A DNA stretch of 64,000 bases from Odiellus spinosus (taxonomy: Eukaryota > Arthropoda > Arachnida > Opiliones > Phalangiidae): contig OY987232.1 of the NCBI GenBank assembly GCA_963920705.1, forward strand, positions 12,773,726 to 12,837,725, in the 5' to 3' direction. A program made the translations under genes and the position numbers. Positions 6,193 to 58,735 of this stretch are shown here, in pieces (within the stretch, counting starts at the first letter, position 1; every line of letters begins with the position of its first letter). A model generated the notes under the pieces. That model was not told the DNA's origin and ran no database searches. It saw only the letters and a program-made list of their open reading frames with translations.

Positions 6193-9100
6193 GCACCAAA
6201 AGATTGGAGTCTAAGGCGTGCTTCACTATTCGAACGTTCGGGAACTCTACTATATGATGACTACGATCATCCTTGGAAATACGTTTTGTTAAATTTATCG
6301 AATGTAACGTAAGAACGAAATTCAACAATATTATCAATAATCAAAGATTGTGTCTACTTATTATTTAATCCCTCTTCCCTTTTTTTTAAAGCACACCAAG
6401 TGGTCAGTAGCGTAGCTGAAAACTAGCCCCCCCCCCGCAAACATTACAATGGGTTACCCATCATGGGGCCCCTTTTTTAAACAAACTCGCACCGTCTACG
6501 TCACTGCAAGTGATGGAAAATGGGCAACTTTATTACCAAGATCAAGTCAAATTTTTAGCTGGTTTGAAAATATTTGAATGTTTAGGAGACACTTGGATAG
6601 AGAAAAAATATTTTACGTCCCCATACGCAACTTTTGCTGTATATTGTCCCTTCATCTATAATATAACCAGAAGCCGATGAAACCCTCCTTTGAAGTCTAC
6701 TACTCTAATGTTCCATATAGCGCTCCTCTCTGTATGGGTAAAAATACCAAGTTTACGAGATCGGAGGGGTCCTACTTCATGCCCCCTGTCTACGGAAAAT
6801 TGAAAATTCTCTATCTCCACAACCGACGTTTTTTTGACGAACTCCAAGGCTGCTAGAGATATTCGCTCGACGAACTCCCGCTCCGAAAATATCTACCGTT
6901 AGGAGGCGTACGAATTGCGCTTTTTGAAACTAACCCACACAGAGAGGGGTAGACAAGACCCAGGAGTAATAGACTTCAAAGGAGGGTTTCATCGGCTTCT
7001 GATATAACGGCAAAGCTATCTTGTCAGTCAAAACAGAAGCTGGGAGCTTTCAAATTAAGCGGAGCATTCAAATTAAGAAGACCATTTAGTTCATCAGCGG
7101 ATATGAGGAATTAAAATAACACCATAACAAAACTGTCAGTTTCTATTTAGATTTTAGAACAAATTACAATGCTATGATGTTATCAAATGGGTAAATGTAA
7201 TTAGAAAGATGATTTTGGTGAAACAAAGAGCTAATTTTTTGATAGAATATTAATAATTGTTCTTGGTTCTCAATGTATCCTTACATCTTTCCAAGGCAGA
7301 TTTGATTCCCTAAATACATCCTCCATGTAACATGGACTGACACATAAGAGCTTTCCCGAAATTGTATCTATCTCCTCCGTGATAATGCCTAGACTAACGA
7401 TATTTTGCGCTCTGTAGGTCGGGCCAAGAGCGCATCGCCCATGTTTTGAATCGTAAAGAGTAAATTCCTATCTCACAAAGAGTATAAAAACTAGTTCAGC
7501 CATGTTTCGCGTCTTGGACAAAAACCGATATATAGAGATTTTTTACATTTGAATCCCTTTTGCCAAATTTATAAGCAAATTTCCATCTTCGATCATTTGG
7601 TTATATATATATTATAAATATAATGCTAATTTAGTGTCATGACTTTAGTCTCAAATATGTATCATATGATGAAGCGGACGACATATTGCGAAAGTACCTC
7701 GGTGTAACTGACTCGAGACAAAAATTAAGCCTATTGGATATGGTTCGATACGGAGTAAGTATCTGAATATTATACGTAATTAAGATTTTTTGAAGTTTTC
7801 AATTTTTGGTCTAGTAACAGTTTCATATGAAACTATTTATATATTCAGACCGAGGATTTTAACCCAAATTGAGATCTAGAAGCTAGAATGTAGGAATTTA
7901 GTCGCTGTTCCTTTCAATTTAGATTAAAATATAATCATTATATTTCATTCTACACGGATTTTGAGAAACGTCATATTTTTATCTTCCCATTATCCGTTTG
8001 AATAAACGAGTAATTTGTTTATTAATCAAGCTTAAAATTTTATATTCGGATAATTCGTATCGTAGAGCTCCGATTCCGAGCTCTACTAATCGTATGGAAT
8101 TGTGAATGTTAATTTTGTTCTTTTATTGCAGTTGTGCGATGCTGTTATTAACTATTACAATATGAATGACCCCCAACGCCTACACATTTCGCCAGTATCT
8201 CGCGCCTACGAAACTATGATTTTTTCATGTACCGCATTTCCCGAGGGTGGCCCCGAGAAACACTTATTTTCTGGTATCGAAGAATCAGTTTGGATTACGT
8301 GGATATTCGGTTTCGTATTAATGTCCATAGTCGGTGGATTATTTAAAACGAGCTTCTTTCGTTCCTCGTCTTTCAGAAATAATTTTTTCGCATCTTTGGC
8401 AAACATCTGGTTTTACACTTCTAGCCTACTAATGAACAGTTAAGTATCACATTTATGGGAAAATCAACTGAAATTTTATATAACTACAGCCCTTTAATCG
8501 AACCTGTTTGCGTTAATAAAACCTGCAAAATATGTCACTGGATTTAGCAAGGTTGCTCGACGCAAGGGTGGCGCTTCCGTTGCTCGACGCAAGGGTGGCG
8601 CTTCCGTTGCTCGACGCAAGGGTGGCGCTTCCGTTGCTCGACGCAAGGGTGGCGCTTCCGTTGCTCGACGCAAGGGTGGCGCTTCCGTTGCTCGACGCAA
8701 GGGTGGCGCTTCCGTTGCTCGACGCAAGGGTGGCGCTTCCGTTGCTCGACGCAAGGGTGGCGCTTCCGTTGCTCGACGCAAGGGTGGCGCTTCCGTTGCT
8801 CGACGCAAGGGTGGCGCTTCCGTTGCTCGACGCAAGGGTGGCGCTTCCGTTGCTCGACGCAAGGGTGGCGCTTCCGTTGCTCGACGCAAGGGTGGCGCTT
8901 CCGTTGCTCGACGCAAGGGTGGCGCTTCCGTTGCTCGACGCAAGGGTGGCGCTTCCGTTGCTCGACGCAAGGGTGGCGCTTCCGTTGCTCGACGCAAGGG
9001 TGGCGCTTCCGTTGCTCGACGCAAGGGTGGCGCTTCCGTTGCTCGACGCAAGGGTGGCGCTTCCGTTGCTCGACGCAAGGGTGGCGCTTCCGTTGCTCGA

Positions 9101-11418
9101 CGCAAGGGTGGCGCTTCCGTTGCTCGACGCAAGGGTGGCGCTTCCGTTGCTCGACGCAAGGGTGGCGCTTCCGTTGCTCGACGCAAGGGTGGCGCTTCCG
9201 TTGCTCGACGCAAGGGTGGCGCTTCCGTTGCTCGACGCAAGGGTAGCGCTTCCGTTGCTCGACGCAAGGGTGGCGCTTCCGTTGCTAAGGCCACTAGAGA
9301 TATAATTGTTACGGGTAGAGACTTTTTGCGGCGCCTTAAATAGATGGTCGCCATTTTAAACGCCGTCTTGTTTGGTAACCCTGCACTCGAGAAGCCTTTT
9401 TCGACATGGTAGTTACTATTCATAGCTGTTGGGGTTAAAACTACTATAGATAGAGTTTCGGCAACTATATAGTTCGCGTTGAGGGAACTAGAGGCTTCTA
9501 GGGGAGTTAGGGAATAACGCGACAGACCAGTATAAAATATCTCCAGGGTAGGCTCTTTCCGCCGCAGTGCCTCTACTCATATCAACTAAAACAACCACCA
9601 CCTCGTTTTCTTCGTGACAAAAATGGCGGTTTGGGGGGCGGAACTAAGGAGAACGGGCAAAATGGTAGCCCCCTTCACAAGGCGCGGCAAAAGTATATAT
9701 GAAATCGTTAAAACTTTGTACCCACTTTACAGTTTTAGTACTGGTAAATAGATCCTCTACGGGGCGTTGTTTACTATATTGAACAAAGTGATAGACTTTG
9801 GTTTATAATGGATATTTTGCTTTGGAATGTAACTTAAATTATTTAAAAACCCTGTTCTAGCTCGGAGTATTATTCCTCGACGGCTTTCATCGAAATTTCT
9901 ACTGTGTTGCTGGCTGTTTGGAACATCCATCTTGGTGAAGATCTATTTGGGCAACTTGAAGAGCGAAATGACAGTCTACAAGCCAATTCGAATAGACACG
10001 ATCGAAGATGTGGAGAAATCCCCAGGCACTAGGCCAGCATTATTTAAATACTCTCAAATGACTCGATACGCGAAGAAATATCGTAAAGTCTTGCCAAAAA
10101 TGGATAAATTGTTAAGAGAAGCGAAAATTGAAACATTAATGGATATTAACAATAAGGAATTCATTCAATGTTTTCGAAACGGCACCCCGAAATACGCCTT
10201 AATAGCGACTGACGAGTTTTTCACATACGCTATGGATCGTCACATATGGATGAAAAAATATTATAAAGCCAACAAAGTAAATTATTATTTTGGTAAAAAG
10301 AAATACTTCACCGAATTCTTCGCTTTGCAACTGAATAAGAAACTACCAAGACGAATCTTGAAACAAGTTAATGTTCTGTAAGTAATATATGGAGGCTGTG
10401 ACGCGGCACATGTAGCGGAGAATTTATGAAGGCGATAGTATATGGTTATTTAGTTCGATGAAAAAAAACGAGATGGCTCTGATTTTCATTTTAGGGGTCT
10501 CAGTTTTTCTGGGGGTAAGGATTGTTTAGATTTATTTCCCTGTCTACTAAACTCTCTCTCTTACAATCTTTCCACAGTATCCCGCCTCTCGCGCGTGGTC
10601 AGGCTGTAGGCCAGACAGTGACGGGTCTTGGATAAAAGGCTATTGTGGCGACATCCTAATTCGAGTTTACGCGTAAAACACCGATATTCATTTACTATCA
10701 GAATTATAGAAAAATTAAACTTAAAAATTGACAAATTTGTCAGAAGTAAAGTTGAAGAATCTAGAGATATTAGAACGCGAGATAATAGGTAAGGGAATGA
10801 GAGAATTTCGATAAGTTATTTTTAAACCAGATTCGCTAATCTCTCGTGTTATAATTATCAAAATTTCATCATGAACTAATGATGATTTAAATTCAAATTG
10901 AAGTGAAAACCGCGAACTGATAGCATTAGTGGTTCGCTTGATAACGACAAATTACAGTTTTTGGTGGGTTACCCATTGACTACCGCCTTAAAATTATTTA
11001 ACTCTACTAAGTAGCGTTATGAAAATAACCATTTCTTATATTTCTTAGTACTGGGAGATTTTTCGAAACAGCCCAATATTATAATACGAGGACTGAGAAA
11101 AGAATTAACAGAATACTAACACGTATAACATTAACGAATAAAGTAACAATGAATGCAATTGTCGGCGCTATGACTTTAGATGAATTGTGGATCATAATTT
11201 TTATTTGGAAATACGGAATGACCCTAGCTTCGATCGCCTTCTTCTTCGAGATCCTCGTGAAATTGATTACGCGACGTTTCCCAAAAGAATTTCAAATAAG
11301 AAACGAAAAGAAAACCACTAGTGACAGATTATTAAACGTGATGGAAATTTTCTTAGGGTTATTCGTGAAATCATGGAAATTTGTAAAACGTTTAAGCCAT
11401 CGTTTTAAAATGAAATAG
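6193..11418 (+). CDS. IR-1: divergent ionotropic receptor (IR) gene, exons A-E
   Basis: Exons with GT..AG borders: A 6193..6308, B 7649..7754, C 8132..8438, D 9861..10377, E 11049..11418 (TAG). Together they give 471 residues with phases 2, 0, 1, 2, identical to the other four genes. A ends the S1 lobe and carries NLSNVT. C holds the end of S1 and M1 (ESVWITW...). D holds the pore and M2 (CCWLFGTSILVKIYLGNLKS) and S2. E holds M3 (IFIWKYGMTLASIAFFFEIL). The known role of the family is a ligand-gated cation channel in chemosensory neurons. No canonical S1 arginine motif is visible, as in many divergent IRs. The true start is unresolved. An alternative exon A from 6147 fits in phase with a candidate upstream exon ending at 6064 (donor GTAATC). 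A 27-bp minisatellite fills much of intron C-D. This is the most diverged copy. Confidence 0.82.
6668..7001. mobile_element. Inverted-repeat transposon, 7-bp TSD ATATAAC
   Basis: Termini are CAGAAGCCGATGAAACCCTC and its complement, extending for over 30 bp. The perfect 7-bp duplication ATATAAC flanks it (6,661-6,667 and 7,002-7,008). It lies in intron A-B of IR-1 and has no transposase. The ends match those of the 757-bp element at 56,397-57,153. Internal sequence (CTCTCTGTATGGGT, AAAATATCTACCG) is also shared, partly in inverted order. Confidence 0.85.
8553..9285. repeat. 27-bp minisatellite in intron C-D of IR-1
   Basis: About 27 near-identical units beginning TTGCTCGACGCAAGGGTGGC and ending GCTTCCG. 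I noticed one substitution (GGTAGCG at about 9,243). The 27-bp period keeps frames open on both strands, reading DARVALPLL or ATEAPPLRR. These are not genes. The array is wholly inside an intron of IR-1. Confidence 0.95.
9286..9860. other. Rest of intron C-D of IR-1
   Basis: The segment around 9,740-9,800 (GGGGCGTTGTTTACTA..., TGATAGACTTTGG) resembles parts of the A-B introns of IR-2 (about 22,845-22,900) and IR-4 (about 49,905-49,960), so it is a dispersed repeat. I see no exon other than the acceptor for exon D at 9,859-9,860. Confidence 0.4.
10378..11048. other. Intron D-E of IR-1 with a dispersed repeat
   Basis: Positions about 10,450-10,640 are the approximate reverse complement of 23,440-23,660 (shared words TCCCCAGA.../GTAAGGATTGTTT and ACTGAACTCTC...). 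Part of it (AGGGGTCTCAGTTT) recurs inverted near 37,555-37,600 and at the right edge near 63,960. No exon is seen between D and E. Confidence 0.4.
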
Positions 11419-13248
11419 TTCATTATTGAGTTATAAATTTTGACCACCAACCTCATAAATAAATGGAATTTGATTATCATTTTCGGAGAGATGGTTAAAA
11501 TCTAATATAAAAATCAAAACTTCACACGTAACTTGGCGTCCCAACTCTTGTTTAGAACAAACTTTTATTTCTCGTTATCAGATATTGCGCAGATAATTTA
11601 ACAGATAAAAACTGTTTACTCGACCATTTGTCTATTCAACTCATTTTAATATCCGAAGTATCTGTCCAAAGATTCCATTTTTTTAAACAGATATCTACGG
11701 TTGATTTATTTTTGCGATTAAAAGCACAATTACTTGACAATAGTTTTAATCTATTCTTTAAGCGACTATTCATTTAAATGAGCGTTTCTCGGTTGGCTGG
11801 CAGATCGAAAGCGAAGTTAAAAACACAAAATATGTAAATAGCTCTCCTTCAGATCAATGTTAGTTTATATCTGGCCCTGGTTGTATGGTCCCACTACTTG
11901 CTAGGCATAATTAACCGGTAATTTTGCGATTATTTACCATTAATCCTAAATGTTTTGTTCATTTTAACGTTTCATAATTTAATATATTATCTTTTAAAAC
12001 AATAATCTAAAAAACAACACCGTTAATGTTTTTGGAAAAAGGCTCGAAGATAAGATGTTTGAGTATATGTCACTTTGAATTATTGTGAACCATACGATGG
12101 TGGTCATCGAGTATTCGGACTTAAAGAAATTGCTATCTCGAATATTTTTGAAATTCTTGGAAAATATTACGCAAATATTTGTTAAAAACAATGTATTTTT
12201 TTTGTTACGTGCACCATTAAAATAATTCAAAAACCGAATAAGCGAGCAATTTTGAATAATTGATAAATTTCTGGGTAATCAAATTTTAAATGGCTTGATG
12301 CGGTTATATTAATACCAAGTTATTCTTTATTGATAAATTTAAGTAGTTGTTTCATCGAAAATGAGGTACGATTATTATCAATTAATGAGGTTGTTTCTTA
12401 ATTTTTGCTCCGTTTTATCAAACGGCGAGCGCTAGTAGTCGGCAAAAATATAGAAAGGGGAGCCCCATCATCGGGAAAAAATATCCATAGGGAGGGAAAA
12501 CATTGTCACTAAAATCATATGGAAGAGTTCAAGTCACTGAAACGTAACAGGGGTGGTAGACACGTTTATCGTTTCGCTAGCTCCATATTGTAGGGCTTAA
12601 AAATTACAATTGACGTATACGCAACTTCTAAATTAATGTACAGAAGGGCCTCGGCACAAAACCTCTCGTAAAAAAGGGGTTATCTCTATATACCATGTTG
12701 TTTTCTTTGTAAAAACAATTTCTACTATATCTCAACAACGGTAAATAATAAGTTTAATATTACTGGTCTGCTTTTAGTAATAGCAGCAGCTTTTTCAAAT
12801 TTTCTACCCCAAACATTAAAAAAACCAATAACCAAGTTCCAAAAATATGGAAAAATACATGGAACATGTGAAATTAAGAATGAAATGATCCTACCTGAAG
12901 TTGTCATTTTCCGGTCGAGATTTTCAGAATTCCGGTTAAGTTTCGAGCACATTTCCAGGGATGAATAAAAATTTCCATTCACATCCTTCAAAATCGTTCG
13001 TCTCGAAAGGATTATTACACCGTAACACCCAAACGTTGGGAAGCTAAGAGTTTTGGCATCCGGACACATACGCCAGTCCCGTGGCAGGAGCAGACGTTGA
13101 CTAAGTCATTATTGAAGCCGCCCTTGTCAAAGGCTTAGCGACACAAAAGGCCTAGACGAGGCATGTACCGGTACTCGACAAAATCATAACACCGCGCATA
13201 AAATCCAAGGCGAAGAGTCCATTAGCACGGTACTAATAACACTAGTAC
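11419..13248. other. Intergenic DNA between IR-1 and the IR-2 cassette
   Basis: No coding exon is supported. Positions about 11,890-12,010 match the cassette DNA at 1,680-1,780 and 27,520-27,610. Positions about 12,140-12,260 match 27,720-27,840 and 40,310-40,440 (AATTCTTGGAAAATATTACG, AATGTATTTTTTTTGTTA). Small open frames on either strand here have no recognisable domain and no homologue in the other cassettes. Confidence 0.4.
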
Positions 13249-14555
13249 CAGAAGTTAATAATTATATCAAGAAGTGTACTACTTCATTGAATTTTCAACT
13301 TTCACCATGTATTCCATGTAATTTCTTGAGCAGACGAAAGCAATTTTTGCATTGACCAATGAGAGAGAGGAAATGTTGAAAATAGTTCTTTAAGATCACG
13401 TGGGGCGCCCGTCATAATCGCGCGTCACAGTCTCACAGATGCGATAGTAAACAAGTAAAATGGCGCCCGCGCGTCACCCGAGACTGAAGGTTTTACGATT
13501 ACCGGATATAAACAATTATATTTTTGTAATCCTACATAAATAATCGAATTTTAGTCGCAAATTGCATTGTAACCTTTCTCAGTTTCACATTATAAGTTTT
13601 AAATTCAATTTAGTATCACGTATTTGTTAGTCCAAAGTCTTTAAGCTCGATTTGGCCTAAGCCTTGGTTAGTTCAGTTGGTGGAAACTTGGATAGTAAAC
13701 TATCGCTCAAGACTCCGACGCCGCTCATTATGCCCCGGCTCCCGGCCCGGCGCTCCGTTCAACAATATTTTTGGCGCCGGTATGAAAAAAACTCGGCGAG
13801 GCGCGGCCGCCGGTATGGAAAAAACTCGGAGAGGCGCGGCCGCCGGTATGGAAAAAACTCGGCGAGCCGCAACCGAAACACGGTCATGCCGCTGCCGGGT
13901 TTTTTTCATGGCGTCTGAGTCTATATCTCTCGCAACTTGATCCATTAACCGTTACTTAAATAAACCGAGCTCAAATTTAAAATGCGGCTCACCTTCTGTC
14001 TCTGCCAAAACAACAATATACAGTGTGATCTTTATTTAAAACCTTCAGTAACAAAACAAATTCAGCGTGACAACTGTGATTTTATGTTTAACGCATCGAA
14101 TCAAACAAATGCGGTAATTATTAAAAATATAATTGACACTAATGATTCATCTACTGATTTTATTTTTGCAAAAATAATCTACTTAATTAATTAAATTTAT
14201 CGAAAATATGATGCCTTTGCCTAGTTTTGATATTACTAACTAAATATCTTGGCCAAAATAATCAGCGACGTAAGAAACATAACATACCTAGGGCTAGGGG
14301 CTACCAACAATATACAAGAGCAGACAAATCATCTGCCTTCAGAACCTGGGAAATTTGGTTTTAGAGGAACTATGCTTTTTGGCTCCGCGCCACAGTCTCT
14401 CTATGTACCTTGTAAAGCGGTCAGCCAAGTCACGTGGGGCCTTACAGGCGCGTTACCAAATTTTTTATATCCGCGCGAGGGGGGAAAGCAACGTAAATTA
14501 CATGGCGCACCAAAATTCTAAGTAGTACACTTCTTGATATAATTATTAACTTCTG
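13249..14555. mobile_element. 1.3-kb inverted-repeat transposon, 7-bp TSD CTAGTAC
   Basis: Terminal inverted repeats of about 35 bp start CAGAAGTTAATAATTATATC. The perfect 7-bp duplication CTAGTAC lies at 13,242-13,248 and 14,556-14,562. The interior has three 33-bp repeats (13,779-13,869; GGTATGGAAAAAACTCGG plus GC-rich tail), which create three overlapping spurious frames. No transposase was recognised. Same terminal class (CAGAAG..CTTCTG, 7-bp TSD) as 6,668-7,001. Confidence 0.82.
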
Positions 14556-14739
14556 CTAGTACCAAGAACGTTTTCGCCGTAGTCGAACCGCGAAATAAGA
14601 AGCAGGCAGCAAAACCGTATATCAACACTGGGCCCGCGTGAAATTAGCGACTTTCCACTTCAAACATCACGGCTCCAAATGAATTTCATTTCCAGCTGTT
14701 GACAAAAAATATACCATTTTTTTTTTAATTTACAAAGCT

Positions 14740-15540: not shown

Positions 15541-15575
15541 ATTTGCAGTTAATGCTTTACAGGGTTCTTCACTAC

Positions 15576-15891
15576 CAAGAATCCATTCAGGTTTCATAAG
15601 AATATGGGAGGGCCGCGATTCAATAACCATCCTCCCAAACTTTGTAGCAAAAGTTCGTCCGCTTCGAATCGATTTTTCAAGTAAATCGCTCCTGACATCT
15701 ATTATTAACCCGCGCCACTAACGACCTTCACATAATATTTTGGGTAATAAAAATGGAGCCGACCGAAAAATGATCTAAGCGTACAAATGTTGCGAAAATT
15801 GCGGAGGAACTTTTGTTACAGAGTTTGGGAGGATGGTACCAGAGGCTAAAGCTATGCTCCCATATTCTTATGGAACCTGAATGGATTCTTG
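15576..15891. mobile_element. Inverted-repeat transposon, 7-bp TSD TCACTAC
   Basis: Ends are CAAGAATCCATTCAGG and the complement, with inverted repeats of roughly 35 bp. The duplication TCACTAC is at 15,569-15,575 and 15,892-15,898. The paralogous DNA near 28,008-28,020 reads GGTTCTTCGCTACTATAAGATG with no insertion. It therefore serves as an empty-site control that fixes both borders. Non-coding. Confidence 0.88.
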
Positions 15892-17251
15892 TCACTACTA
15901 TAAAATGTGTCTAGCTTACAAATGAATGTCGAAGCCTATCGATGACTTGGTTAATTAACGTTGCTTCATTATCTTAAAATATTAAGTCATAAGGAACAAT
16001 AAATATGTCATTTTTACAGAACCACAGGAAATTCAAATTTAGAACTACTGAGAACGTTTCAAAATATATTACTACACTTAGAAATTTACAGGAAAATAGG
16101 TCAATTTAAGGTGAACTTAGTATTAGAAACGTGCTACCCAAAAATTGTATAATTTTAGTATGTCAAAATTACCTTCCCAAGCCCAAGTTTTTTGCACCAA
16201 AAGTGGACCAACTTAAATCTGCTTAATTATGATTCTTTCGTATATATTAATGCTTCGTTTTCTCATCATATTGGCTGCATACGTTTATAATGCAATACCA
16301 AAAAGAAAATGGAAGGGAACACGCCATCGTAGCCCTTTCGTTTAATTAAAGGGAAACAAGAATATTTAAGGCGGTAACTCACCAAAAAAAAGGGTCATTC
16401 GCGGTTTTCACTTGAATTTCAATTAAAATCTTCTTTTGTTCGTGACGTAATTTTGATAATTATAACGCGAAAGATTAGCGAATCTTGTTTAAAATTAACT
16501 TTATCGAAATTTTATCCTTTCCGTTCCTACTATCCCACGTTCTAATATCGCTAGATTCTATAACTTCCGACTTCCCTTGAAATGAACGATATCGAAATAG
16601 TGACACGATTCATTTTCCATTTGATTTGAAGCTTTTTACTGGCGAATACATACATCATATAAATATTAAAGACATCATGTATCCAACTTTTGGAAATTTG
16701 AATAACCAAAACATTTGTACAATAATAAAACATTAATACAGCCTTTTTTTAATATTACTAATGAAGAATGGTGTATAATTTTACCATCTACAGTAAATAC
16801 ACAACTTTCCCAGTGTTTAAAAGTTCCAAATCAAATGGAAAAGAACCTCGTCACACCAACGTGATAGTTACATTCAAAGAAAGGTGAAAAAAAAAAAAAT
16901 AAATAAATAAATAAAAAAAAATGAAGTTTATTCCCGATTGTTAAAATAACTCGAAAAGTACGAAGTCACAAATAGCTAGCTCTGCCAATCAGCAGAACTA
17001 TAAATTAATCTGCTGATCGCCAGAACTAATACTAGTATTTTTTTAAACGTATTCTATATTATAGGCATTAATTAGTTTCTCACTGGTTCTCAATTTGATA
17101 ATACTCTTTCCTCTAGGTACGCTAGCTTTCAAAAATCTTACGAAAGAAAAATGATATTCAGTGGTTATTTGAAAACTACCAATTTTAGTTTTTACTGACA
17201 AGCTCGTGATAACAATCACTTAAGATCTTCGCAGTTGATTTCTTGCTAAAG

Positions 17252-20777: not shown

Positions 20778-20798
20778 TTTAAGAATATTTGTTAATAC

Positions 20799-21115
20799 CA
20801 GAAATAGATGAACCGAAATTATCAACGAGAGCTTAGATTGGGAAATGCATTTTATTTGGAGTGAATGGGGAGGGTAAGCACTGGGGGAATGGGCTTCCTC
20901 GGCCTCAATGAAATACCGAGGAGGATCTTGGGAAACTGATCGCCCCACGTAGCGACGGCTGCAAAACAAGCCAGGTGGCGCATTCAACGTTTCTCGGCTA
21001 GGCGAAATTCCGCGGGGGAGGGGGCTACAACTGTCGTCTAAGAGAGGGGAAACGGAGAACTTGCCTGTGGCGTTAGAGGAATAGCTCGTTGATAATTTCG
21101 GTTCATCTATTTCTG
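20799..21115. mobile_element. Inverted-repeat transposon, 7-bp TSD TTAATAC
   Basis: Ends CAGAAATAGATGAACCGAAA and complement, about 31 bp inverted repeats. The duplication TTAATAC is at 20,792-20,798 and 21,116-21,122. It abuts the 19,441-20,777 element. Non-coding, in the Z-A intron of IR-2. Confidence 0.85.
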
Positions 21116-21249
21116 TTAATACCCGGCTGAATTATATTACAAACTAAAATAGCCACCAAGAGGTATTTCTTGGAAATTCCCTGGTTACAATAGGGCGTAT
21201 ATTCGGATGGTGAGGTGACTAGTAATCTTAGATAATTTTATTATTTCAG

Positions 21250-26918: not shown

Positions 26919-26931
26919 GCCCAATAGTTGT

Positions 26932-38511: not shown

Positions 38512-40240
38512 TATTTAATCAGTATAATTGGTCATAAGATGTAAAGGAAACATTTAATGGATGCACTTGACCATGAGATGTGAAGTAAATATTTAATCGG
38601 CGCACTTGGCCATGAGATGTAAAGAAAATATTTAATCGGCGCACTTGACCATGAGATGTAAAGAAAATATTTAATCCGCGCACTTGACCTTGAGATGTAA
38701 AGGAAATATTTAATCGGCACACTTGACCATGAGATGTAAAGAAAATATTTAATCGGTGCACTTGACCATGAGATGTAAAGGAAATATTTAATCGGCGCAC
38801 TTGTCCATGAGATGTAAAAGGAAATATTTAATCGGCGCAGTTGACCATGAGATGTAAAAGAAATATTTAATCGGTGCACTTGACCATGAGATGTAAAGGA
38901 AATATTTAATCGGTGCACTTGACCATGAGATGTAAAGGAAATATTTAATCGGTGCACTTGACCATGAGATGTAAAGAAAATATTTAATCGGTGCACTTGA
39001 CTATGAGATGGAAAGGAAATATTTAATCGGCGCACTTGACCATGAGATGTAAAGGAAATATTTAATCGGCGAACTTGACCATGAGATGTAAAGGAAATAT
39101 TTAATCGGCGCACTTGACCATGAGATGCAAAGGAAATATTTAATCGGTGCACTTGACCATGGGATGCAAAGGAAATATTTAATCGGTGCACTTGACCATG
39201 AGATGTAAAGAAAATATTTAATCGGCGAACTTGACCATGAGATGTAAAGGAAATATTTAATCGGCGCACTTAACAATGAGATGTAAAGGAAATATTTAAT
39301 CGATGCACTTGACCATGAGATGTAAAGGAAATATTTAATCGGTGCACTTGACCATATGGGATGCAAAGGAAATATTTAATCGGCGCACTTGACCATGAGA
39401 TGTAAAGGAAATATTTAATCGGTGCACTTGACCATGAGATGTAAAGAAAATATTTAATCGGTGCACTTGACGATGAGATGTAAAGGAAATATTTAATCGG
39501 TGCACTTGACCATGAGAAGGAAAGGAAATATTTAATCGGCGCACTTGACCATGAGATGTAAAGGAAATATTTAATCGGCGAACTTGACCATGAGATGTAA
39601 AGGAAATATTTAATCGGCGCACTTGTCCATTAGATGTAAAGGAAATATTTAATCGGCGCACTTGACCATGAGATGTAAAGGAAATATTTAATCGGTGCAC
39701 TTGACGATGAGATGTAAAGGAAATATTTAATCGGTGCACTTGACCATGAGATGTAAAGGAAATATTTAATCGGCGCACTTGACCATGGGATGCAAAGGAA
39801 ATATTTAATCGGCGCACTTGACCATGGGATGCAAAGGAAATATTTAATCGGCGCACTTGACCATGGGATGCAAAGGAAATATTTAATCGGCGCACTTGAC
39901 CATGGGATGCAAAGGAAATATTTAATCGGCGCACTTGACCATGGCATGCAAAGGAAATATTTAATCGGCGCACTTGACCATGAGATGGAAAGGAAATATT
40001 TAATCGGCGCACTTGACTATGAGATGTAAAGGAAATATTTAATCGGTGCACTTGACCATGAGATGTAAAGAAAATATTTAATCGGCGCACTTGACCATGA
40101 GATGTAAAGGAAATATTTAATCGGTGCACTTGACCATGAGATGGAAAGGAAATATTTAATCGCCGCACTTCACCATGAGATGTAAAGGAAATATTTAATC
40201 GGCGCACTTGACCATGAAATGTAATGAAAATATTGAATCT
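38512..40240. repeat. 39-bp satellite behind IR-3, about 44 copies
   Basis: Same unit as behind IR-2, in its largest array. Five adjacent units around 39,780-39,960 share the variant CCATGGGATGCAAAGG, showing recent local amplification. Occasional units have a 1-3 bp insertion (39,355 CATATGGGATG). Long minus-strand frames come from the 39-bp (13-codon) period. Confidence 0.95.
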
Positions 40241-45993: not shown

Positions 45994-46683
45994 GTAAGTT
46001 AAAAACGTTACAATGTTGACAAAAAAAGATTACATTAATTGGGGTGCGAACTCCAGTAAATTAAATTTTAATGAGTATAAGGTCAAAAATCTTTAAACCT
46101 TTTGTTAAGTTAAATCTGTGAATTATTTACTTTGAAAAGAAAGCAGAAAAAAGCCCGTTAAAAAAGCCACATTCAGAGGTTAATAACGAGTAGAAGAGTC
46201 TGCATAATCCTTTTTAAGTGAGCCTATCACGGATTTAACACGAACTCCAAACCGAAATTGAGTAGTATACAGGGTGTTTTAGAAAGGTCTGGAAAAAATG
46301 AAGGGGGTTCTTCGTGGGGTCAGACTGAGTAAAAAAGGTTTATGAACCTTTAGTCTCACGCGCTGCGTTGCGTAGTTATGAGCCCTTGAAAATAGTCCTC
46401 AAAAATACGAAAAACGACCGAAAGGTGTAGGTAAGATTGTGCCTTTGACCATTATTGTTTTTCTATTTAATTGTGCATAAGCTAATTATCGAGAGATAAG
46501 TGAAACAAGGTGTTTATTAACTAAAAAAAAGCGTATCAACATGTTTAGGAATGGGCAATCATTAACGTTGGTCAGAAGAACTTGAACTCAAACTGTGGTT
46601 TCGGGTGTAGAAAAGGGAATTTTACAAGACGCCATTATTAATTACCATAATTAATTATGGTAAATAATCGGAATCAAAAGTAT

Positions 46684-47624
46684 TTACAAAAATTGTTCGA
46701 AATGCATTCCTACAGCGTTGATACACACTTGAGCCCGTCTAATAAATGATTGTCTAACTCGTGCGTTGCGTATGGTTTCGCAGGCATCAATAATCCTTTG
46801 ACGTAGATCTTCCACGTCACGCACTTCACTAACATAAACAAAAGTCCTTAAGGTGGCCCCAAAGAAAGAAATAACAAGGGTTTAGGTCCGGAGATTTGGC
46901 TGGTCACGCAACCGTTCCGCCACGACCAATCCACCTCAAAGGGAATGTTTCATTTAGGAAGGCCCTAACTAGGAGAGAAAAATGAGGTGGTGTACCGTCG
47001 TGCAATAAACCACATGTCTCGTCTCAAGGCCAATGGTACGTCTTCAAGAAGCTCGAACAGATTGTCTTGAAGAAACGGGAGATATGTCTAACCATTAAGC
47101 CTTGGCTGCAAAAAGAATGGTCCAATTAAATGGTCACCAACAATTCCGCACCAGACGTTTAAGCTGAATTGAACTTGGTGAGCCCTAACACTTGTAGCGT
47201 GGGGTTTTGTTACGCCCACTGATGCCTGTTGTGCATGTTCAATATGCCATCACGGGAAAAATTGGCCTCATACGTAACTAAAAGGTTTTGGGGTAAGTTG
47301 ATGTCTTGATGTTGAGCGATAAACCACTGACAAAAGTCCAGTCTGCTCGGGTAATCCGTTTCGTTAAGGGCTTGGACCTTCTGTAGATGGTAAGGGTGAA
47401 ACTGATGTCCTCGGAGTATTCACCAGATAAGATCGTGACTTACTCCCAATTGGCGTCCAACTCGCCTAGTGCTTGTTCCTGGATCTTCGTCGAAAATGGT
47501 GAGTACTTGTTCCTCCACCTCTTCAGGAACGTCTGGAGCTACAGCACCTCGTCCCGCCGGTTGGATATGTCCACCTTCCCTCAAACGTCCGTCGACAATT
47601 TGGATAGTTTGTTGATTTCGGAGA
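46684..47624 (-). pseudogene. Broken mariner-type transposase, minus strand
   Basis: Read from the centre into the left arm, the minus strand shows LREGG, an HTH-like segment with STRRVGRQLGVS, HPYHLQKVQ and DYPSRLDFCQW, then the catalytic region. In-frame stops occur (after SHDLIW, after NRHQWA and later), and about the first 60 residues expected for the family are missing at the inversion point. The N-terminal DNA-binding part is therefore incomplete. The product would be a cut-and-paste transposase, but this copy is dead. Confidence 0.8.
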
Positions 47625-48284
47625 AGACTGGACTTTTGTCAGTGGTTTATCGCTCAACATCAAGACATCAACTTATCCCAAAATCTTTTAGTTACGGATG
47701 AGGCCAATTTTTCTCGTGACGGCATATTGAACATGCACAACAGGCATCAATGGGCGAAACAAAACCCCCACGCTACAAGTGTTAGGGCTCACCAAGTTCA
47801 ATTCAGCTTAAACGTCTGGTGCGGAATTGTTGGTGACCATTTAATTGGACCATTCTTTTTGCAGCCAAGGCTTAATGGTGAGGCATACCTCCCGTTTCTT
47901 CAAGACAATCTGTTAGAGCTTCTTGAAGACGTACCATTGGCCTTGAGACGAGACATGTGTTTTATGCACGACGGTGCACCATCTTATGTTTCTCTCCTAG
48001 TCAGGGCCTTCCTTAATGAAACATTCATTTGAGGTGGATTGGTTGTGGCGGAACGGTTGAGTGGCCAGCCAGATGTCCGAACCTAAAGCCTTGTGATTTC
48101 TTTCTTTGGGGCCACCTTAAGGACTTTTGTTTATGTTAGTGAAGTGCGTGACGTGGAAGATCTACGTCAAAGGATTATTGATGCCTGCGAAACCATACGC
48201 AACGCACGAGTTAGACAATCATTTATTAGACGGGCTCAATTGTGTATCAACGCTGACGGAATGCATTTCGAACAATTTTTGTAA
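47625..48284 (+). pseudogene. Inverted duplicate of the transposase catalytic part, plus strand
   Basis: A better-preserved copy of the catalytic region. TDEANFS carries the first acidic residue, FMHDGAPSY the second, and PCDFFLWGH the third, a DDD-type triad typical of mariner relatives. Frame breaks fall after FLNETFI (48,030) and before the third motif, so it is not a single frame. It ends with HFEQFL and TAA at 48,284. It lacks the entire N-terminal half. Confidence 0.8.
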
Positions 48285-49122
48285 ATACTTTTGATTCCGA
48301 TTATTTAACAATTGATAATTATGGTAATTAATAATGGTGTCTTGTAAAATTCCCTTTTCTACACTCGAAACCACAGTTCGAGTTCAAGTTCTTCTGACCA
48401 ACGTTAATGATTGCCCATTCCTAAACATGTTGATACGCTTTTTTAGTTAATAAACACCTTGTTTCACTTATCTCTCGATAATTAGCTTATGCACAATTAA
48501 ATAGAAAAACAATAATGGTCAAAGGAACAATCTTACCTACACCTTTCGGTCGTTTTTCGTATTTTTGAGGACTATTTTCAAGGGCTCATAACTACGCAAC
48601 GCAGCGCGTGAGACTAAAGGTTCATAAACCTTTTTCACTCAGTCTGACCCCACAAAGAACCCCCTTCATTTTTTCCAGACCTTTCTAAAACACCCTGTAT
48701 ATACTATATATTATAGAAAAAATTACAGTGACAGTGAAAATACATATTTAATAAAAGCTATTTTGCAGAAATGTTTAAACTAAAATTACCCCATACGGCA
48801 TCACATATATGGTCACGTGGCTATTGGAGAGCCTACGATTGACCACTTTCTTGCGGCGTACTTAATCATATCTTTAATAACGTCCCAGAAATAAACTACG
48901 TCACATATCGGAAAAAAATACATATTTTATAATCTCTTTTCTTAATCAAATTTTTAAAATAAAAACTCCCCGCGATAGAACGTCATCATATTTGACTGTA
49001 ACTATTCGATATCAAACGAATCAAATTACAGTATTTTATTGAAGAGCCAATGATCATTAACCTCGCGGTCCTCAAAGGGGTAGTGACACTAATCTTAGAC
49101 AGTTATATTTTTATATGATCAG

Positions 49123-52100
49123 AGTGAAACGCATTTTAATTGGAAGGAAGACAAGCGCAGAGATTTCGAACAAGGAAAATATTTCGACGATAACTTAGTA
49201 TCTTTGATGCAATATATTTTGCTTAATTTATCAAACATCACGTAAGAACAATATTTCATGATTTTTTGTACATTGAAGAGCACTTGACCATAACTGGCTT
49301 GTTAACTACTCCTACTTGACTAAATTTGAATTAGTGAATCTACGAGAGTCGACTATTAAGAATATAACCAAAAGTCTGTCACTTCATTCTATAGAAGTAT
49401 ACCACGTCTCGTAGCTTAATACTATAAGCAAAGGTCCTGGTAAATGTACCGGCAGATTCTGATTCGAGACACTCTAGCGGCCCGAGGGGTCAGACACTCT
49501 TGGATTTGCTGTACACCTGAGTTCAGCTTTGAGTTCGTACTCTCATGAACTCTGAGTTCAGCTTTGATTATGCAAAGAGTTCAAAAATTTTGTACAATTG
49601 AGTTCGCGAGCGTCTGCCCCTCGTAGCGGCCGCAGTCGCCGTGCTATTAGGGAAAGAAAGTGGCGCCACTCTTTGCAGAAATAAGAATAATATAAGAATA
49701 ATATATTAATATAAGAATAATATATTGGGAGATAAGACAATATAGCCAAGCCTGGCCCGCCTCAATTCCGTCCCTCTCTCCCGACTCAAAATATCTAGAA
49801 AGAGTAAGAGTCCAAAATCACTCGAGGTAGATAGATGATGAGTTTTTTCGCCATTTTTAAATGATGAGCTATGACGTAAAACTGAACCTCAAGTGTTAGT
49901 ATTAAACTACGGGGCGCTATTTACTTTTATGGAATAAAATGATAGACCTTTGGTAAAACATAGATCCAAGAGAAAACGGAGTGATTAGATAGCGGCAAAT
50001 ATTCTCCCACCAACTTTTTGCACAGGCATAAAATGTTAACCGTATAATTCGAAATTGAAGAGGAACGTGAAGGGGCTGCGTGCCATTGGGGTACATGTAC
50101 ACTCTTTACGCGCCGATCTGTTAAGAGATGTCGCTATCGTAGTTCCATTCCGATCCTATTTCGATTGGCTAAGACGAGAGAGGCAAACTAGGCGGTAACA
50201 CCTCCCCTCTCGCTTCGAAACTCGCCGCGTTTCCCATAGCAGCGGGTAATACGTGGATAGGTACGAGAGCGAGAGAGACAGTGAGGCGCGGGCGCGCCAT
50301 CTATTTTGATAATTCATCATTATATTTGTACCCCAATGGCCGTAGCCCCTGGATCAGTTGGTTTACGAGTATGAAAATTTCGAATTGTCAATTATGGGGA
50401 GGAAAAACCTTGAAAATTGAGTGATTTCTCTAGTTTTTATGTTAATATAGCTGGCTCCGACAATTAAGCAACATAATTGTATTGCAAGTAGAACACTTCT
50501 AGATCCTCCGCTTTCGAAAGTTTTCCACTAACTTTCTTTATATTCGCTTAAATAATTTTTTTCTATTTGTTACAAACAATATATTATTTTATAATTTTAT
50601 AGTCTGAAATTCATCAGTATCAGTCAAGTAAAGGCCATGGCGAAAAATCATCGCGACAATTCTTTTAAGGGATCATTAACCAAAGCTGTTGAACTTGGAG
50701 TATGTACAGTAATATAAATCAACAAAAGAGTAGCTTATTTTTAAGCCTCAGCTTTGTTTCATCGCAAAAACTTGATTCTTGGCCAAAAACAATTTTGGTT
50801 AATTAAAGCTGGCGTTTCTGATTTCTTTAGTATTTTATTAATAAATATTAATTTATTTTACTCGCAGTTTTGCGATACGATTCTTGAGCCTTTCGGCCTC
50901 AGTGGGACCGACAAGATCTCTTATCACTTTTCACCTCCATTCGAATTCCAAGAAGTTGTTATTGCAACCATCGCGAGCCCCGCGAGCAGCGACAAGCAAT
51001 TTTCATTGAAGGGCATCGAGCCATCTGTTTGGGCGACGTTGCTAGTCTGTCTGCTAATATTGTCTCTGATCTGCGCAATTTTAAAAGTCAACTTTATTCG
51101 TTTGAATTTGGCGAATCGTTTTCTTTTTTTGGAATACGCGTGGTACTTCGTTTCAGACCTACTACAGAACCGTTAAGTATATTCCGTAATTGGTGTTTCC
51201 GAATCAAACAAATTAAATGAAATAACTTTGAAACCTTTCTAGCTCAAGATATTTTTCCAGCGAGAATTTCGGCAAAGTTTCTAGCGGGTGGCTGGTTACT
51301 TGGCACGATGGTCTTGATCAAGGCCTATACGGGGAACTTGAAAAGCGACTTAATGACGTCAAAGACCATTCGAATAAACACTCTCGAAGATTTGAGTAAA
51401 TCACCCGGAACAAGGCCCGCGATACGTGGAGATGGTCCCTTTATGGGCTATGCTCTGAAGACGCGTAACAAATGGCCTTTGATGGATAAATTGTTAAGGG
51501 AAGCATATCAATACGATGATTACAAGATGCACCCTCAACTACATCGTTCTTTTCCGAATGGCACTGCTAAATTCGCCGATCTGATTTCTCGAGAAGAGAT
51601 GAAAAATAGATTACACAGAGGTTTATTCAAAGATTGGCTTCAGAAATATCTAAAAAGCTCGGGCAGAGGTTTCTATTTCGGAAACAAAAATTATTTTACT
51701 CAATTTGGGGTTTTCATGTTCAATAAAAATCTACCTAAAAGAATATTGGAACAAGTTGATTATCTGTAAGTATCGGGTTAGATATTTATAGTGCATACAC
51801 AATTGTATTAGCGCTTATTTTATTTTCATGGGGAAACATGTTTCCTGCGCAATTTAAGAAACGCCCCAGTTACCGCGTCTTCGCGTATTCTATTACTGTT
51901 CCATGCGTATAATTAAAAGAATATTTGAACCTCAGGAACACTATTTCCTTGTTGTTTCTCTCTCAGTATCGTCAGAGGTATATAATATCCCCCTTCGGGG
52001 GGAAGTATGAAAGCCCTTATACTACCAATGCTAAAAATCACGAACAACAAGAGCCCACTGCTGACTATCTAGGCCACTAGCTCGCGCTGGACTTCTCAAT

Positions 52101-52795
52101 GTCGCTACTCTAGTAAATGGTCTTTGTATAAACAAGACGGCTCGATTTGTGTTTAGAACTTCCTGTCTCAGGAGTCAGGCTGTCTGTTATATTGGAGTCG
52201 AAGGTTGACTTCAGCTAGCAGGTTCCGGAAGTGTGTGTAGGGAAAATTTAGTGAGGTTCAAAATGGTGTAACTATTTTTTGGGAGTAAAGCGGTGTGTCG
52301 ATCCGCCGCCATTTACGCCGGGCACTTGTTGTTCGTCGATTTTGCCTACCTTTCATACTTCCCCCCGAAGGGGGTTATTATATACCTCTGGTATCGTAAA
52401 TAGTTCCCACTTGTTTATCGTTAATGTTTTTAGATCTACTAGTAAATAATAATAACGAATGCCTTAGAACCATCAAATTCTTTGAAACGGACCAAATACG
52501 CCGATATCGAATGAGAACTGAATTCGACGTACAACCGATGATAGCATCAGCTGCAACCACCGAAATAAACGAATTGAGTGCCGTGACCTTTGACGAATTG
52601 TTCATTTCGTTTTTCATTTGGAAATGCGGGATGTCATTCGCTTCAGTCTGCTTCTTCTTCGAGTTTCTCCCGTTTTTTATTAGACGTCTGCTGCAGAAAT
52701 CGCTACAACGAGGGAGGCTAACCACGAATGAAGAAGTTGTAGACAACATCGTGGGATTCTTTACGAAAATAAGGAATATTTGTACCGAAGAGTAA
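49123..52795 (+). CDS. IR-4: ionotropic receptor (IR) gene, exons A-E
   Basis: Exons: A 49123..49241, B 50603..50699, C 50868..51171, D 51243..51765, E 52468..52795 (TAA), giving 456 residues with intact frame. Exon B is one codon shorter than in IR-2, IR-3 and IR-5. M1 is SVWATLLVCLLILSLICAIL. The pore is LAGGWLLGTMVLIKAYTGNL. M3 is FFIWKCGMSFASVCFFFEFL. Exon A (FNWKEDKRRDF) and the A-B and D-E introns match IR-2 better than IR-3 or IR-5. Exon C begins FCD instead of LCD. Intron D-E carries a 418-bp transposon. NLSNIT and NGT sequons are conserved. The product is probably a chemosensory cation-channel subunit with unknown ligand. Exon Z at 45,947 probably belongs to it. Confidence 0.86.
50071..50350. 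mobile_element. Small inverted-repeat element in intron A-B of IR-4
   Basis: Ends AGGGGCTGCGTGCCATTGGG and the near-complement CCCCAATGGCCGTAGCCCCT. The interior is GC-rich with CGAGAGCGAGAGAGAC. No clear target duplication. Non-coding. IR-2 lacks it. Confidence 0.65.
51973..52390. mobile_element. Inverted-repeat transposon, 7-bp TSD GTATCGT
   Basis: Ends CAGAGGTATATAATATCCCC and complement. Inverted repeats of about 40 bp include CTTCGGGGGGAAGTATGAAAG. GTATCGT flanks both sides (51,966-51,972 and 52,391-52,397). The IR-2 intron at about 25,780 (TCTCCGTATCGTAAATATT) is the empty site. Non-coding. Confidence 0.9.
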
Positions 52796-52951: not shown

Positions 52952-53258
52952 TGTAATCATTGCACTTGAGATGTAAGGAAAATATTTAATTGGCTTACTT
53001 GACCATGAGATGTAAAGGGAATATTTAATCAGGCCACTTGACCATTAGATGTAAAGAAAATATTTAATCAGGCCACTTGACCATTAGATGTAAAGAAAAT
53101 ATTTAATCAGGCCACTTGACCATGAGATGTAAAGGAAATATTTCATCGGTGCACTCGACTATGAGATTTTAACAAAAATATTTAATCGGCGCACTTGACC
53201 ATGAGATGTAAAGGAAATATTTAATCGGTGCTCTTGACCATGAGATATAAAGGAAGAC
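52952..53258. repeat. 39-bp satellite behind IR-4, about 8 copies
   Basis: Same unit as behind IR-2 and IR-3, with a local variant (CAGGCCACTTGACCATTAGA) repeated three times. It starts about 160 bp after the IR-4 stop codon. Confidence 0.92.
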
Positions 53259-53648: not shown

Positions 53649-53919
53649 AAGGGAAGTTATTAATCCAATATATTCAGTGCTTGGTTTCAAAGTACCAAAC
53701 TTCAGTTTTTAATGACAAGCTCGTGACATCATGCCATTATCGTAAATTACTTTAGATCTTTGCAATTATATTTCTAGGGAACGTTTTGGCGAATATTTTA
53801 GTGGTCCTCGTTTTTTTATCTTTAATAGATCGTGGCATATTTTATGATTTCATTCTCCCTTTTAAGTAATCAAAGTTATTTTGCGTAAGTACTTAAGTGG
53901 CAATTAAACTTCCTAATAA

Positions 53920-54189
53920 CAAGAAGGATCAGACAAGGAGAGGAAAAGTGCGTCGGCCTAAACTTCCACTCTGGGAGAACGGGGGTAGAGATGTTTCGTG
54001 GTAAAATGTTGTCACGTGGGTAAAACGGATCCTTTATCAGCTTCGTAGCAGCCAACGACGCTAGTGACCACGTGACAACAGTTTACCTCGAGAATTTCCT
54101 ATCCCCCTTTCCACCCGAGTGGGAGGTTGGCTCTTCTCTCTCTAACTCAACGCAGCCCCACTTTTCCTCTCCTTGTCTGATCCTTCTTG
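53920..54189. mobile_element. Inverted-repeat transposon, 7-bp TSD CTAATA(A/C)
   Basis: Ends CAAGAAGGATCAGACAAGGA and complement (about 31 bp). It is flanked by CTAATAA (53,913-53,919) and CTAATAC (54,190-54,196). The paralogous sites (about 17,400, 30,460 and 45,730; CTTTGTAATACAAAG) are empty. Non-coding, in the IR-5 upstream block. Confidence 0.85.
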
Positions 54190-54611
54190 CTAATACAAAG
54201 CGGTCCCAAATAAACAAATGATATATCGTGAAAAGTAGAAGAGTATTATGGTCAATTTGCAAAAGTAATTATTTGGATGATACCGTGATCGTTATAAAAA
54301 TTGTTGTAATCTAAAAAGAAGAAGTGCTTGGCGTCATTTCACTCTTGACATAAAGAAACTACGCATAGGAAAGTCGTAAATATTCGCGCTTACATTTCGT
54401 TTATATGCGAAGAGTGTCCAAATAAAGTATTTCTAATATCTAAAACAAATAAAAGTAAAAAATGTATTTGTAATGTATTTATGAACAATCCTAAAGGTTG
54501 CCTACAGTGTCTAGAATTGACCCTAGGTGCACCGAGTTTGTGGAAACAAATCTAAAGGGAAGTTGCTTGAGAAACAAAAGGAGGTCTCGCTTCTGTAAAA
54601 TATAGTTTAAA

Positions 54612-55858: not shown

Positions 55859-55871
55859 TTACAGGGCTCAG

Positions 55872-55918: not shown

Positions 55919-56396
55919 GTACGTTAAAAGCGTTGCAATGTTCTTTTCTCCGGGTTTCCAACGGGCCGTAATGTAATTACTAAACTTGTTTCAAGGGAGT
56001 ACAAGGTCAAAAGACCTTTAAAGCTTTCATTCCTTTAAATGTGCGAGTTATTTTGTATTAGAAGGCTTAGTCAGAGAGGTCATATACGATCCTTAGAAGT
56101 GAGGCTGTCACTGATTTTTCACAAACTCCAAATGGAAATTGAGGAATATTTTCGGAAAGATCGTTAAAAAACAATTCAAAATATATTTATATATATATAA
56201 AAAAAAATGCGATTTTACGTCATCGTAGGGTCAAGTGGCTATGTAGAGCTTACAGTTCATAGTTTTCGCCAGGTGTTTTTCGCAAAAATACTTAATACAG
56301 ATCGTTAATAACGTACCAGAAATAAATTACGCCATAAATCCAATAATACGCCCAGCATAAAATTTTGCTTAAGGTGTTTTAATAATAATATAAAAC

Positions 56397-57153
56397 CAGA
56401 GGCCGATGAAACCCTCCCTTGAGTAAATTAGGTCTTGTTCATACATAGACCTAAATGCGCTTCGTTGCCTTTCAATTTCTATAACTGGTTATCAAATCAA
56501 CGTGAGAAATCAGTTCGTGTTGGTTCGGGAAGCAATTTGGTCGAGTCCCTTCGGTTCAATCCGCCAAGAAAATAACGAGGCGGGGAGACAAATTTGCTGA
56601 TAAATCTTAAAATAACGCGATTAAAATTAAAGTTTATGTCAGAAATTATTAACCAACGAGTTACAAACACGATTTACTAACTAGTTTGAGATAATTTTTT
56701 AAAAATTTTAAATTCTGGGCATTTTTTAAAACGACGCTAAGCTTTGGCTTAGGTCGAACCGGGGCGAAGGGCCGCGAACCGTCTTGTCAGCGTGTGAACC
56801 AGGGAAATCGGAAAACGTTCGTATTGGTTTTGGAACCGATTTTGCCCTGAAGTATGAACGAGGCTTTAGTTCCGGGTCTTGCCTACCCCTCTCTGTATGG
56901 GTTAATCTCAAAATTCGCGATTCTTACGCCTCCTCACGGTAGATATTTTCGGAGCGGGAGTTTGTCCCGCGAATATTTCTAGCAACCTTGTAGTTCGTCA
57001 ACCGAACGTCGTCGAATGTGGAGAGAATTTCCAATTTTTCCGTATGAAGTAGGACCCCCTCCGATCTCGTAAAATTGGGAATTTTTCCATACAGAGAGGA
57101 GCGCTATATGGAACAGAGTAGTAGACTTCAAAGGAGGGTTTCGTCAGCTTCTG
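56397..57153. mobile_element. 757-bp inverted-repeat transposon, 7-bp TSD ATAAAAC
   Basis: Ends CAGAGGCCGATGAAACCCTC and near-complement. The perfect duplication ATAAAAC is at 56,390-56,396 and 57,154-57,160. Same family as 6,668-7,001, with a longer interior. Small frames inside are not recognisable proteins. Confidence 0.87.
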
Positions 57154-58735
57154 ATAAAACTAAAAATTAAATCCATAGGCATTCTAAAATTAATGGTGAC
57201 AGCTTTACTTTAATAAGTATATTTCTTAATATCAGCATATTTGTGGGGCTACATTATCCCTTTAGGAAAATTTGCAAATAACGACTGAATTATGTTAAGA
57301 ACTGAAATGGAAGCAAGGACAGGGTTGCCACAGTTTTTTCAGATTCAAATTCCCTGACTTTTCTAGGTTTTTCCCTGACCTTTACCAACGATTTTCCCTG
57401 ACCGTTTCATCTAATACTACCCAATTTTTAACCTTTTATTTTTTATATAATTGCTCTGGCCAAACTTTTTGCACGCGTATCTTTGTTCTAATTAGAGACT
57501 GGCGAGAGCCAGTCTCTGTTATTCATAGCTCTAGTTTTCCGTAGACTGCTAGCAGCTCCTCTGTTTGGGCTGTATTAACTCCGATGGGGAAATAACATGG
57601 GCTGCCAAGATCCGAGATTCTTATACATTATCGAAGCTCAAAAATCGAGTGATTACCCATGACGCTTTTTTTGGTACACGTTAAAGTTCAGTGTGTCTGT
57701 ACCTAGAGTCGTCATACCCGAAGGCCTATCTATAATTTGGAAGCTGTTTGTTTTCTTTTTTTCTGTGATTTAGTTTAATCTTATGTCGATATGTGTGCTT
57801 TTGACCTTTTTTTTCCCCAAATCAGACTTTAATATAAAGTAAAATTAATTTTAAATCTATGTTATACAGAATGGTCCCTCGCTTTGCACGCGTTGAAATT
57901 ACGGTTGCCTCTAGCTAGTGCATAAACGGCCATAGAGTATTTGCATAGCCCGCTTAGACAGCCCGCTTAGGCAAAAAAGGCCGTAGCTTCAAGCTCTATC
58001 ATTGCTATGTACGCGTTGAAATTCGGTATGGTTCCACCTCTAGCCAATGAACACGCCGTCAGGCGGTTAACCATCCCGCTTATAAATTCCCTACGCGCTG
58101 CTGCAAAGCGACCGTTCTCTGTATTTATTCTGGGATAGAGAAAAAACACCCCTTTACCTTTACACCCGCTGAATTTGGAAAGTGAAATAAGCGGGAGAGT
58201 AGCGAAAAGAGAGTAAGAGACGCCATAAAATGTTTCATCGGTTAGTTTCGTAAAACTACTATATCTTTAACAAAAGACTTGAATATGGTAATTATTTTTG
58301 TTTATTTTTGAAATGTCTTAATTGAATTTTTATGAGTTTTATTTTCCATTTGGACTTAAATATTAACTAAATGAGTTGTTATAAATTACAATCCAAGGCT
58401 TAGTGGGACAATCTCTTCGACGTAGACCTTTTGGTCAGGTTTTACTAGATAGATGTCAGTACTTTCTCCGCCGACCGATGAATTCGAATCTCGTAGCGAG
58501 TTCAAGTTTTTTTTTAAATTATTTTTTTATTAAACTTTAATTTTTCTTCAAATTAATTATATTATAAAATATCATTCCTCTTCTAATATCATAATATCAT
58601 TAAAATTTAATTATAATTCATAAATAAATTTAGTGGTTCAACTTTTTGTCAGTAGGTGAAAGCTGATTTCGTACGTTATCTTACAGCTACGCTATAACAC
58701 GCGCATGAGCATGAAATTGGTAGCCTATTGCATAT

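Follow-up and report, generated by a model that had tools for sequence, protein, structure and literature searches.

Seven-base-pair target duplications and a probable P-superfamily origin of non-autonomous transposons in Odiellus spinosus

Seven inverted-repeat elements in the window, that is, in the whole 64,000-nucleotide stretch of Odiellus spinosus DNA analysed here, appeared to share a 7-bp duplication, and the question is which kind of transposase moves them, and whether it is one enzyme or several.

The elements of the window and their families

All seven elements start with CA, end with TG and carry inverted ends, and the coordinate pairs of the original prediction proved exact throughout. 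The first is a MITE of 334 bp at 6,668-7,001 (6661..7008 with its target site duplication, TSD), which has a perfect terminal inverted repeat (TIR) of 31 bp and is flanked by ATATAAC at 6,661-6,667 and 7,002-7,008. It is followed by a non-autonomous element of 1,307 bp at 13,249-14,555 (13242..14562 with TSD CTAGTAC), by MITEs of 316 bp at 15,576-15,891 (15569..15898 with TCACTAC), 317 bp at 20,799-21,115 (20792..21122 with TTAATAC), 418 bp at 51,973-52,390 (51966..52397 with GTATCGT) and 270 bp at 53,920-54,189 (53913..54196 with CTAATAA/CTAATAC), and by an element of 757 bp at 56,397-57,153 (56390..57160 with ATAAAAC). None is assigned a strand. Six of the elements measure 270-757 bp and one 1.3 kb, with TIRs of ~19-35 bp by an ungapped measure. 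The 7-bp TSD is exact in six of the seven, and at 53,920 it agrees at 6 of 7 bases, as had already been noted.

A blind scan of the window for TIRs with TSDs returned six 7-bp matches, namely five of the seven elements and one tandem-repeat match (55,350); elements 53,920 and 56,397 were missed because of an imperfect TSD or TIR. The same scan of five Markov-simulated controls gave three matches with 6 bp, a single one with 8 bp and none with 7 bp. In the window there were also 330 8-bp matches, all of which, among the matches listed, fall within a tandem array at 21.6-22.7 kb.

The internal sequences of the seven had been described as unrelated. This holds for six separate families, named here after their window copies, but not for elements 6,668 and 56,397, which are 82% identical over 307 columns, so that 56,397 is a relative of e6668 and the families are six, not seven. 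Inside 56,397 lies another high-copy repeat (its inner 438 bp gave 724 first-look candidates genome-wide), which ruled out this interior as a clue to an autonomous copy. In the genome searched, an assembly of 443 Mb in 286 contigs, first-look candidates numbered 1005 for e6668, 212 for e13249, 108 for e15576, 365 for e20799, 460 for e51973 and 1721 for e53920. All six families are repetitive, with copies from many contigs, and their TIRs have little in common past CAG/CAA, the first two or three bases. The 6,668 TIR had 0 matches in a scan of viral contigs.

The 31-bp TIR of e20799 was found 298 times in forward and 292 times in reverse orientation genome-wide, and its reversed control not at all; at one place this TIR is followed by a different base, and that place is one of a pair at MITE spacing. 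Among 30 fetched copies of e20799, 28 are letter-for-letter identical, orientation aside, a count biased by the choice of best-scoring copies. This near-identity points to a recent amplification of one family, e20799, as a burst. No two of the 30 fetched e6668 copies are alike. The sampled copies are the best-scoring ones of each search, so that identity and TSD preservation are biased upward. One e20799 copy, with TSD ACACTTC, was found inserted in the terminal repeat of an e13249 copy (L056).

The window holds other features besides these elements. A repeated array of receptor-like genes (8090-11415, 24660-26181, 36457-38285, 50745-52792 and 62863-63785) reads by eye as ionotropic glutamate-receptor-like channels, two of its ORFs having Lig_chan matches below the cut-off, and the 51,973 element is positioned between two ORFs of one gene copy. 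Large tandem arrays with units of 20-39 bp lie at 3666-5933, 8552-9286, 21624-22677, 38507-40239, 26308-26920 and 52967-53252, and those at 26.3, 38.5 and 53.0 kb share near-identical units of 39 bp and adjoin receptor-like genes; Pfam matches of the tandem-repeat ORFs were taken as compositional. At 46266-48701 there is a near-perfect palindrome of 2.4 kb with TATACAGGGTG ends, whose inner ORF resembles a Tc1/mariner transposase by eye and for which Pfam found nothing. Perfect hairpins at 2293-2801 and 59862-60365 have arms of 201 and 211 nt, short loops and no clear TSD. A search of the window for Rfam or tRNA matches found none.

Length and sequence of the target duplication

Mostly 8-bp duplications in genome-wide copies, or a lack of (A/T)AC bias, had been named in advance as results that would speak against the original prediction. 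Ends were read for 96 copies across the genome, three of the window's own included: 84 have an exact 7-bp TSD, 8 agree at 6/7 bases and 4 lack a TSD. An 8-bp TSD was seen in 0 copies, and the bias is present. By family, exact 7-bp TSDs were found in 25 of 30 copies of e6668 (3 more with 6/7), 30 of 30 of e20799, 6 of 6 of e13249, 8 of 10 of e51973 (2 with 6/7), 6 of 10 of e15576 (2 with 6/7, 2 with none) and 9 of 10 of e53920 (1 with 6/7). Elements with 8-bp duplications and other ends were found in the same fetched DNA, which means that the method is able to detect 8 bp. The inverted-repeat scan of this DNA also lists readings of 5, 6, 9 and 10 bp, several of them shifted readings of the same elements.

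Each of the seven window sites had been said to end in (A/T)AC in one orientation. The bias itself is real, with a WAC end in 40 of the 84 exact sites against ~6% expected; it is not found in every site of this wider sample, and it constitutes one half of a palindromic target motif, RTWNWAY, seen in the 84 exact sites with both orientations counted. The first sample was counted for this bias on exact 7-bp copies only (55/60). In the window, a WAC end in one orientation is found in 6.4% of random 7-mers, and 0 of 200,000 random sets of seven 7-mers equalled the observed WAC, with 53,920 taken as CTAATAC. Position 1 of the motif is A or G in 76% of sites, position 2 is T in 84% and position 3 is A in 53% or T in 30%, with the mirror image in the second half. 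Of the 84 sites, 80 have T2 or A6 and 61 have both. Outside the TSD, a T/A-rich signal appears at -3/-4 only, and the target sites read are AT-rich.

A 7-bp duplication at such a target has been described in the P superfamily. Galileo has mostly 7-bp TSDs, three copies having 8 bp, with the consensus GTANTAC in six Drosophila genomes (PMC4168063). Against this consensus the mean number of matching positions is 3.0-4.5 of 6 for five of the families and 2.9 for e53920, with 1.64 expected. The test used only exact 7-bp copies, 78 sites without e53920, which was added later as 9/10; 0 of 100,000 null draws reached the first five families, and for e53920 P = 0.0005.

Other inverted-repeat elements with 7-bp TSDs were seen at L019:165, L048:46 and L077, with CAAAAGTC ends (ATATACC, CTAATAG) or CATAAGCC ends (GTATTAA).

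P-type transposases and the 20,799 family

The genome contains many diverged P transposases. PF21787, the TNP-like RNase H domain of P transposases, gave 150 scored matches from 386 candidates there and none in the 14 control genomes. At locus L061 lies an element of 3,777 bp with perfect 25-bp TIRs and the TSD GTTTTAC, whose frame of 794 aa contains the PF21787 RNase H, a THAP domain (8e-12) and a GTP-binding domain, the last of which is found also in L063. An alignment of its protein to 6p5a, the P transposase of Drosophila, has an E-value of 3e-21 and covers the regions of all three catalytic residues (D, D, E). Three further copies of this type, read at their ends only, have the TSDs ATTATAC, TTTGAAG and ATACAGA, all of 7 bp, and L088, whose frame has stops, has the TSD ATCCGAC and 26-bp TIRs starting CACTACC. 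These five TSDs average 3.2 of 6 GTANTAC matches (P ~0.001). The ends of L061 and L088 (CGGTGCC, CACTACC) are unlike those of the MITEs.

Convincing TIR/TSD pairs were present in these two of the eight fetched P-transposase windows; in the other six none was found, a relaxed scan giving weak 10-of-14 pairs only. For L062/L091 no TSD is claimed, as the matching 7-mer downstream of L091 comes without an inverted end. The elements of our window have no blastn match in the eight P windows, and their weak tblastn matches (best E 0.012) were taken as chance. Two of the P-type transposase frames are each followed downstream by an ORF that converges on them (L062:4599-5252 and L064:4821-5558, both on the minus strand); these ORFs share 36% identity along 73 aa, and Pfam gave nothing above the cut-off for either.

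On sequence grounds, e20799 is linked to a P-type transposase lineage, with shared subterminal DNA that runs into a PF21787 frame. Two long e20799 copies of 803 and 909 bp, with TSDs GTAATAT and GTAGAAT, share the TIR and the subterminal DNA, and look like internal-deletion intermediates. The interior of the 909-bp copy had 21 genome matches, three of which break at one point, bases 1-280 being found on C13 and 281-430 on C1 and C18; the others break elsewhere. Such a shared break at 280/281 is what one would see had the 909-bp copy arisen from a longer element by internal deletion. The left end on C13 (L155) and the window MITE are 93% identical along 136 bp, a stretch that takes in 21 bp of the TIR on its inner side. 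Another element, whose end reads CTTATTTCCCAGCCTG and which at L036 is flanked by an 8-bp duplication, cuts away the outer 10 bp of this C13 TIR. Elements ending in CAGGCTGGGAAATAAG or similar with 8-bp duplications, which we take to be hAT-like, were seen at L036:1047-1328, L042 and L155, and one of them cut into the C13 TIR.

Downstream of the C13 left end, L152 and L154 are open in frame to their ends, and by genome search the C13 frame spans 801 aa without a stop. L154 scores 35.8 bits for PF21787 (cut-off 24.6), is 21-24% identical to four other P-type proteins of the genome and retains catalytic positions one and two as FDE and CDG, the stretch read ending before the third. PF21788, the GTP-binding domain, gave no match in L154, though the region aligns with the other P-type proteins. 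A search of the N-terminal 303 aa of the C13 frame gave no THAP, which may be encoded by an exon further upstream. With L154 as query, phmmer failed to recover the P transposase (6p5a) from the PDB. The AlphaFold model of L154 is weak (pLDDT 50, pTM 0.43), and its input alignment included further P-type proteins from this genome; Foldseek with this weak model gave as best PDB matches the P transposase structures 6p5a and 6pe2 (E 7e-11 and 1e-10, TM 0.41), followed by Mos1 at E 1e-3. The C13 frame has 119 genome matches; six of these are 801-aa copies with equal scores, at 56% (C2:31746975, C7:14068100, C1:7155498, C1:8760307, C2:22190782 and C2:25790946). The C1 copy, which has the exact e20799 TIR, contains an inward frame from the opposite end with a GRPKNKR motif.

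The C13 locus, at 18,772.6-18,777 kb, is known from its left end and frame, the right end and TSD lying outside the stretch read, and its left TIR is interrupted. These points would fit a MITE relative that had landed by accident beside an unrelated P-type gene, a reading that we consider unlikely: resemblance to the 909-bp copy ends with base 280, just where the C1 and C18 pieces begin at 281, as internal deletion predicts, and the C13 stretch that was fetched shows no second TIR.

Two other loci were set aside. L081, considered as an autonomous e20799 copy, has both TIRs and is flanked by the TSD ATAGGGC; a THAP-like fragment in it (E 3e-4, below the cut-off) belongs to a nested insert and is therefore no evidence for a P element. 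This TTAA-flanked insert (L081:588-1640, with GGAATGGT/ACCATTCC ends), perhaps Kolobok-like, sits in an e20799-type element. The 5-kb interior of L080 (C18) reads by eye as reverse transcriptase and was taken as a nested retroelement.

Assignment, mechanism and significance

Taken together, the seven elements are very probably non-autonomous cut-and-paste elements of the P superfamily, inserted by the genome's P-type transposases with a 7-bp stagger at RTWNWAY. The 7- or 8-bp TSD at a palindromic target that goes with this superfamily was found, and a TNP-like RNase H transposase in the element or its source was found for e20799 only. The search for an autonomous copy with matching termini linked e20799 to a PF21787 frame and gave no transposase partner for the other five families, which we infer to be P-superfamily members by footprint alone. 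The P-like origin suggested originally is supported by the footprint, by P-type elements with 7-bp TSDs in the same genome and by e20799, and a little-described superfamily is not needed. The idea of one mobilising transposase finds no support: the six TIRs have little in common and the P transposases of the genome are many and diverged, and the enzymes that move the other five families are inferred to be several.

Dada elements have TSDs of 6-7 bp. Since the search for autonomous partners came up empty in five families, and since the TIRs are alike in little but their first two or three bases, it could be argued that only e20799 is P-type and that the others belong to one or more different superfamilies with duplications of ~7 bp, such as Dada. 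This seems very unlikely, given that the 7-bp length is common to all six families and that each of the other five lies above the GTANTAC null; Dada, moreover, inserts into multicopy RNA genes (PMC8869645), whereas the sites here are AT-rich and spread over many contigs.

The CAG/CAA ends resemble hAT ends, and the 8-bp elements in the same DNA include some with ends such as CAGGCTGGG, which are presumably hAT-like. That the seven are hAT MITEs whose transposase gives 7-bp rather than 8-bp duplications is nevertheless hardly credible, as the 8-bp TSD of hAT elements occurs in 0 of 96 copies here and in 99.8% of published hobo insertions (PMC3276498), and as e20799 DNA runs into PF21787 and not into a hAT domain.

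For the P-superfamily assignment, the nearest systems can be likened by description. Galileo has mostly 7-bp TSDs, a palindromic GTANTAC-type target and many non-autonomous copies with two TIRs (PMC4168063, PMC2775673 and PMC3573991). It differs in its long TIRs, against ~19-35 bp here, and in an extended AANGT/ACNTT motif not seen as such in our elements; its TIRs in D. mojavensis range from 18 to 1,250 bp with a mean of 668 (PMC3573991), which makes TIR length alone a weak criterion. Similarly likened by description, 1360/Hoppel of D. melanogaster, also of the P superfamily, has a 7-bp TSD, GTTNAAC, that falls within RTWNWAY; the P element and hobo (hAT) have 8 bp in the same source (PMC3276498). 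The P element, Anopheles P-MITEs and zebrafish Pdre2 are alike in that their transposase is of the TNP-like RNase H type, that autonomous copies have given rise to MITEs and that the TIRs measure ~13-31 bp (PMC7776569, PMC1562414 and PMC10983969), and differ in their 8-bp TSDs and in their ends. The literature searched, which covered few subscription journals, yielded no description of P-type MITEs with 7-bp duplications in a genome of this kind.

In the proposed mechanism, P-type transposases encoded elsewhere in the genome would act in trans on the inverted ends of the elements. By analogy with the P element (PMC7776569), the transposase would bind the ends, excise the element and join it to the target strands. 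Target cuts staggered by 7 bp at AT-rich, palindromic RTWNWAY sites would then be repaired into the 7-bp duplications, and the small elements may arise by internal deletion of longer ones. A bolder reading, tentative and rather doubtful, is that of a distinct 7-bp P lineage in radiation, with a transposase devoid of a recognisable THAP, a second convergent gene read from the opposite end (C1:543878, L067/L153, the GRPKNKR inward frame), and several sublineages each feeding its own non-autonomous family simultaneously.

Flies are the best-known hosts of P elements. With its 150 scored P-transposase matches, its six repetitive families of P-type non-autonomous elements and one near-identical recent burst, this genome is suited to asking why some P transposases duplicate 7 bp and others 8, and it is also a place to ask how MITEs arise by internal deletion. 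The footprint of 7 bp at RTWNWAY may serve as a practical label for placing orphan MITEs in the P superfamily.
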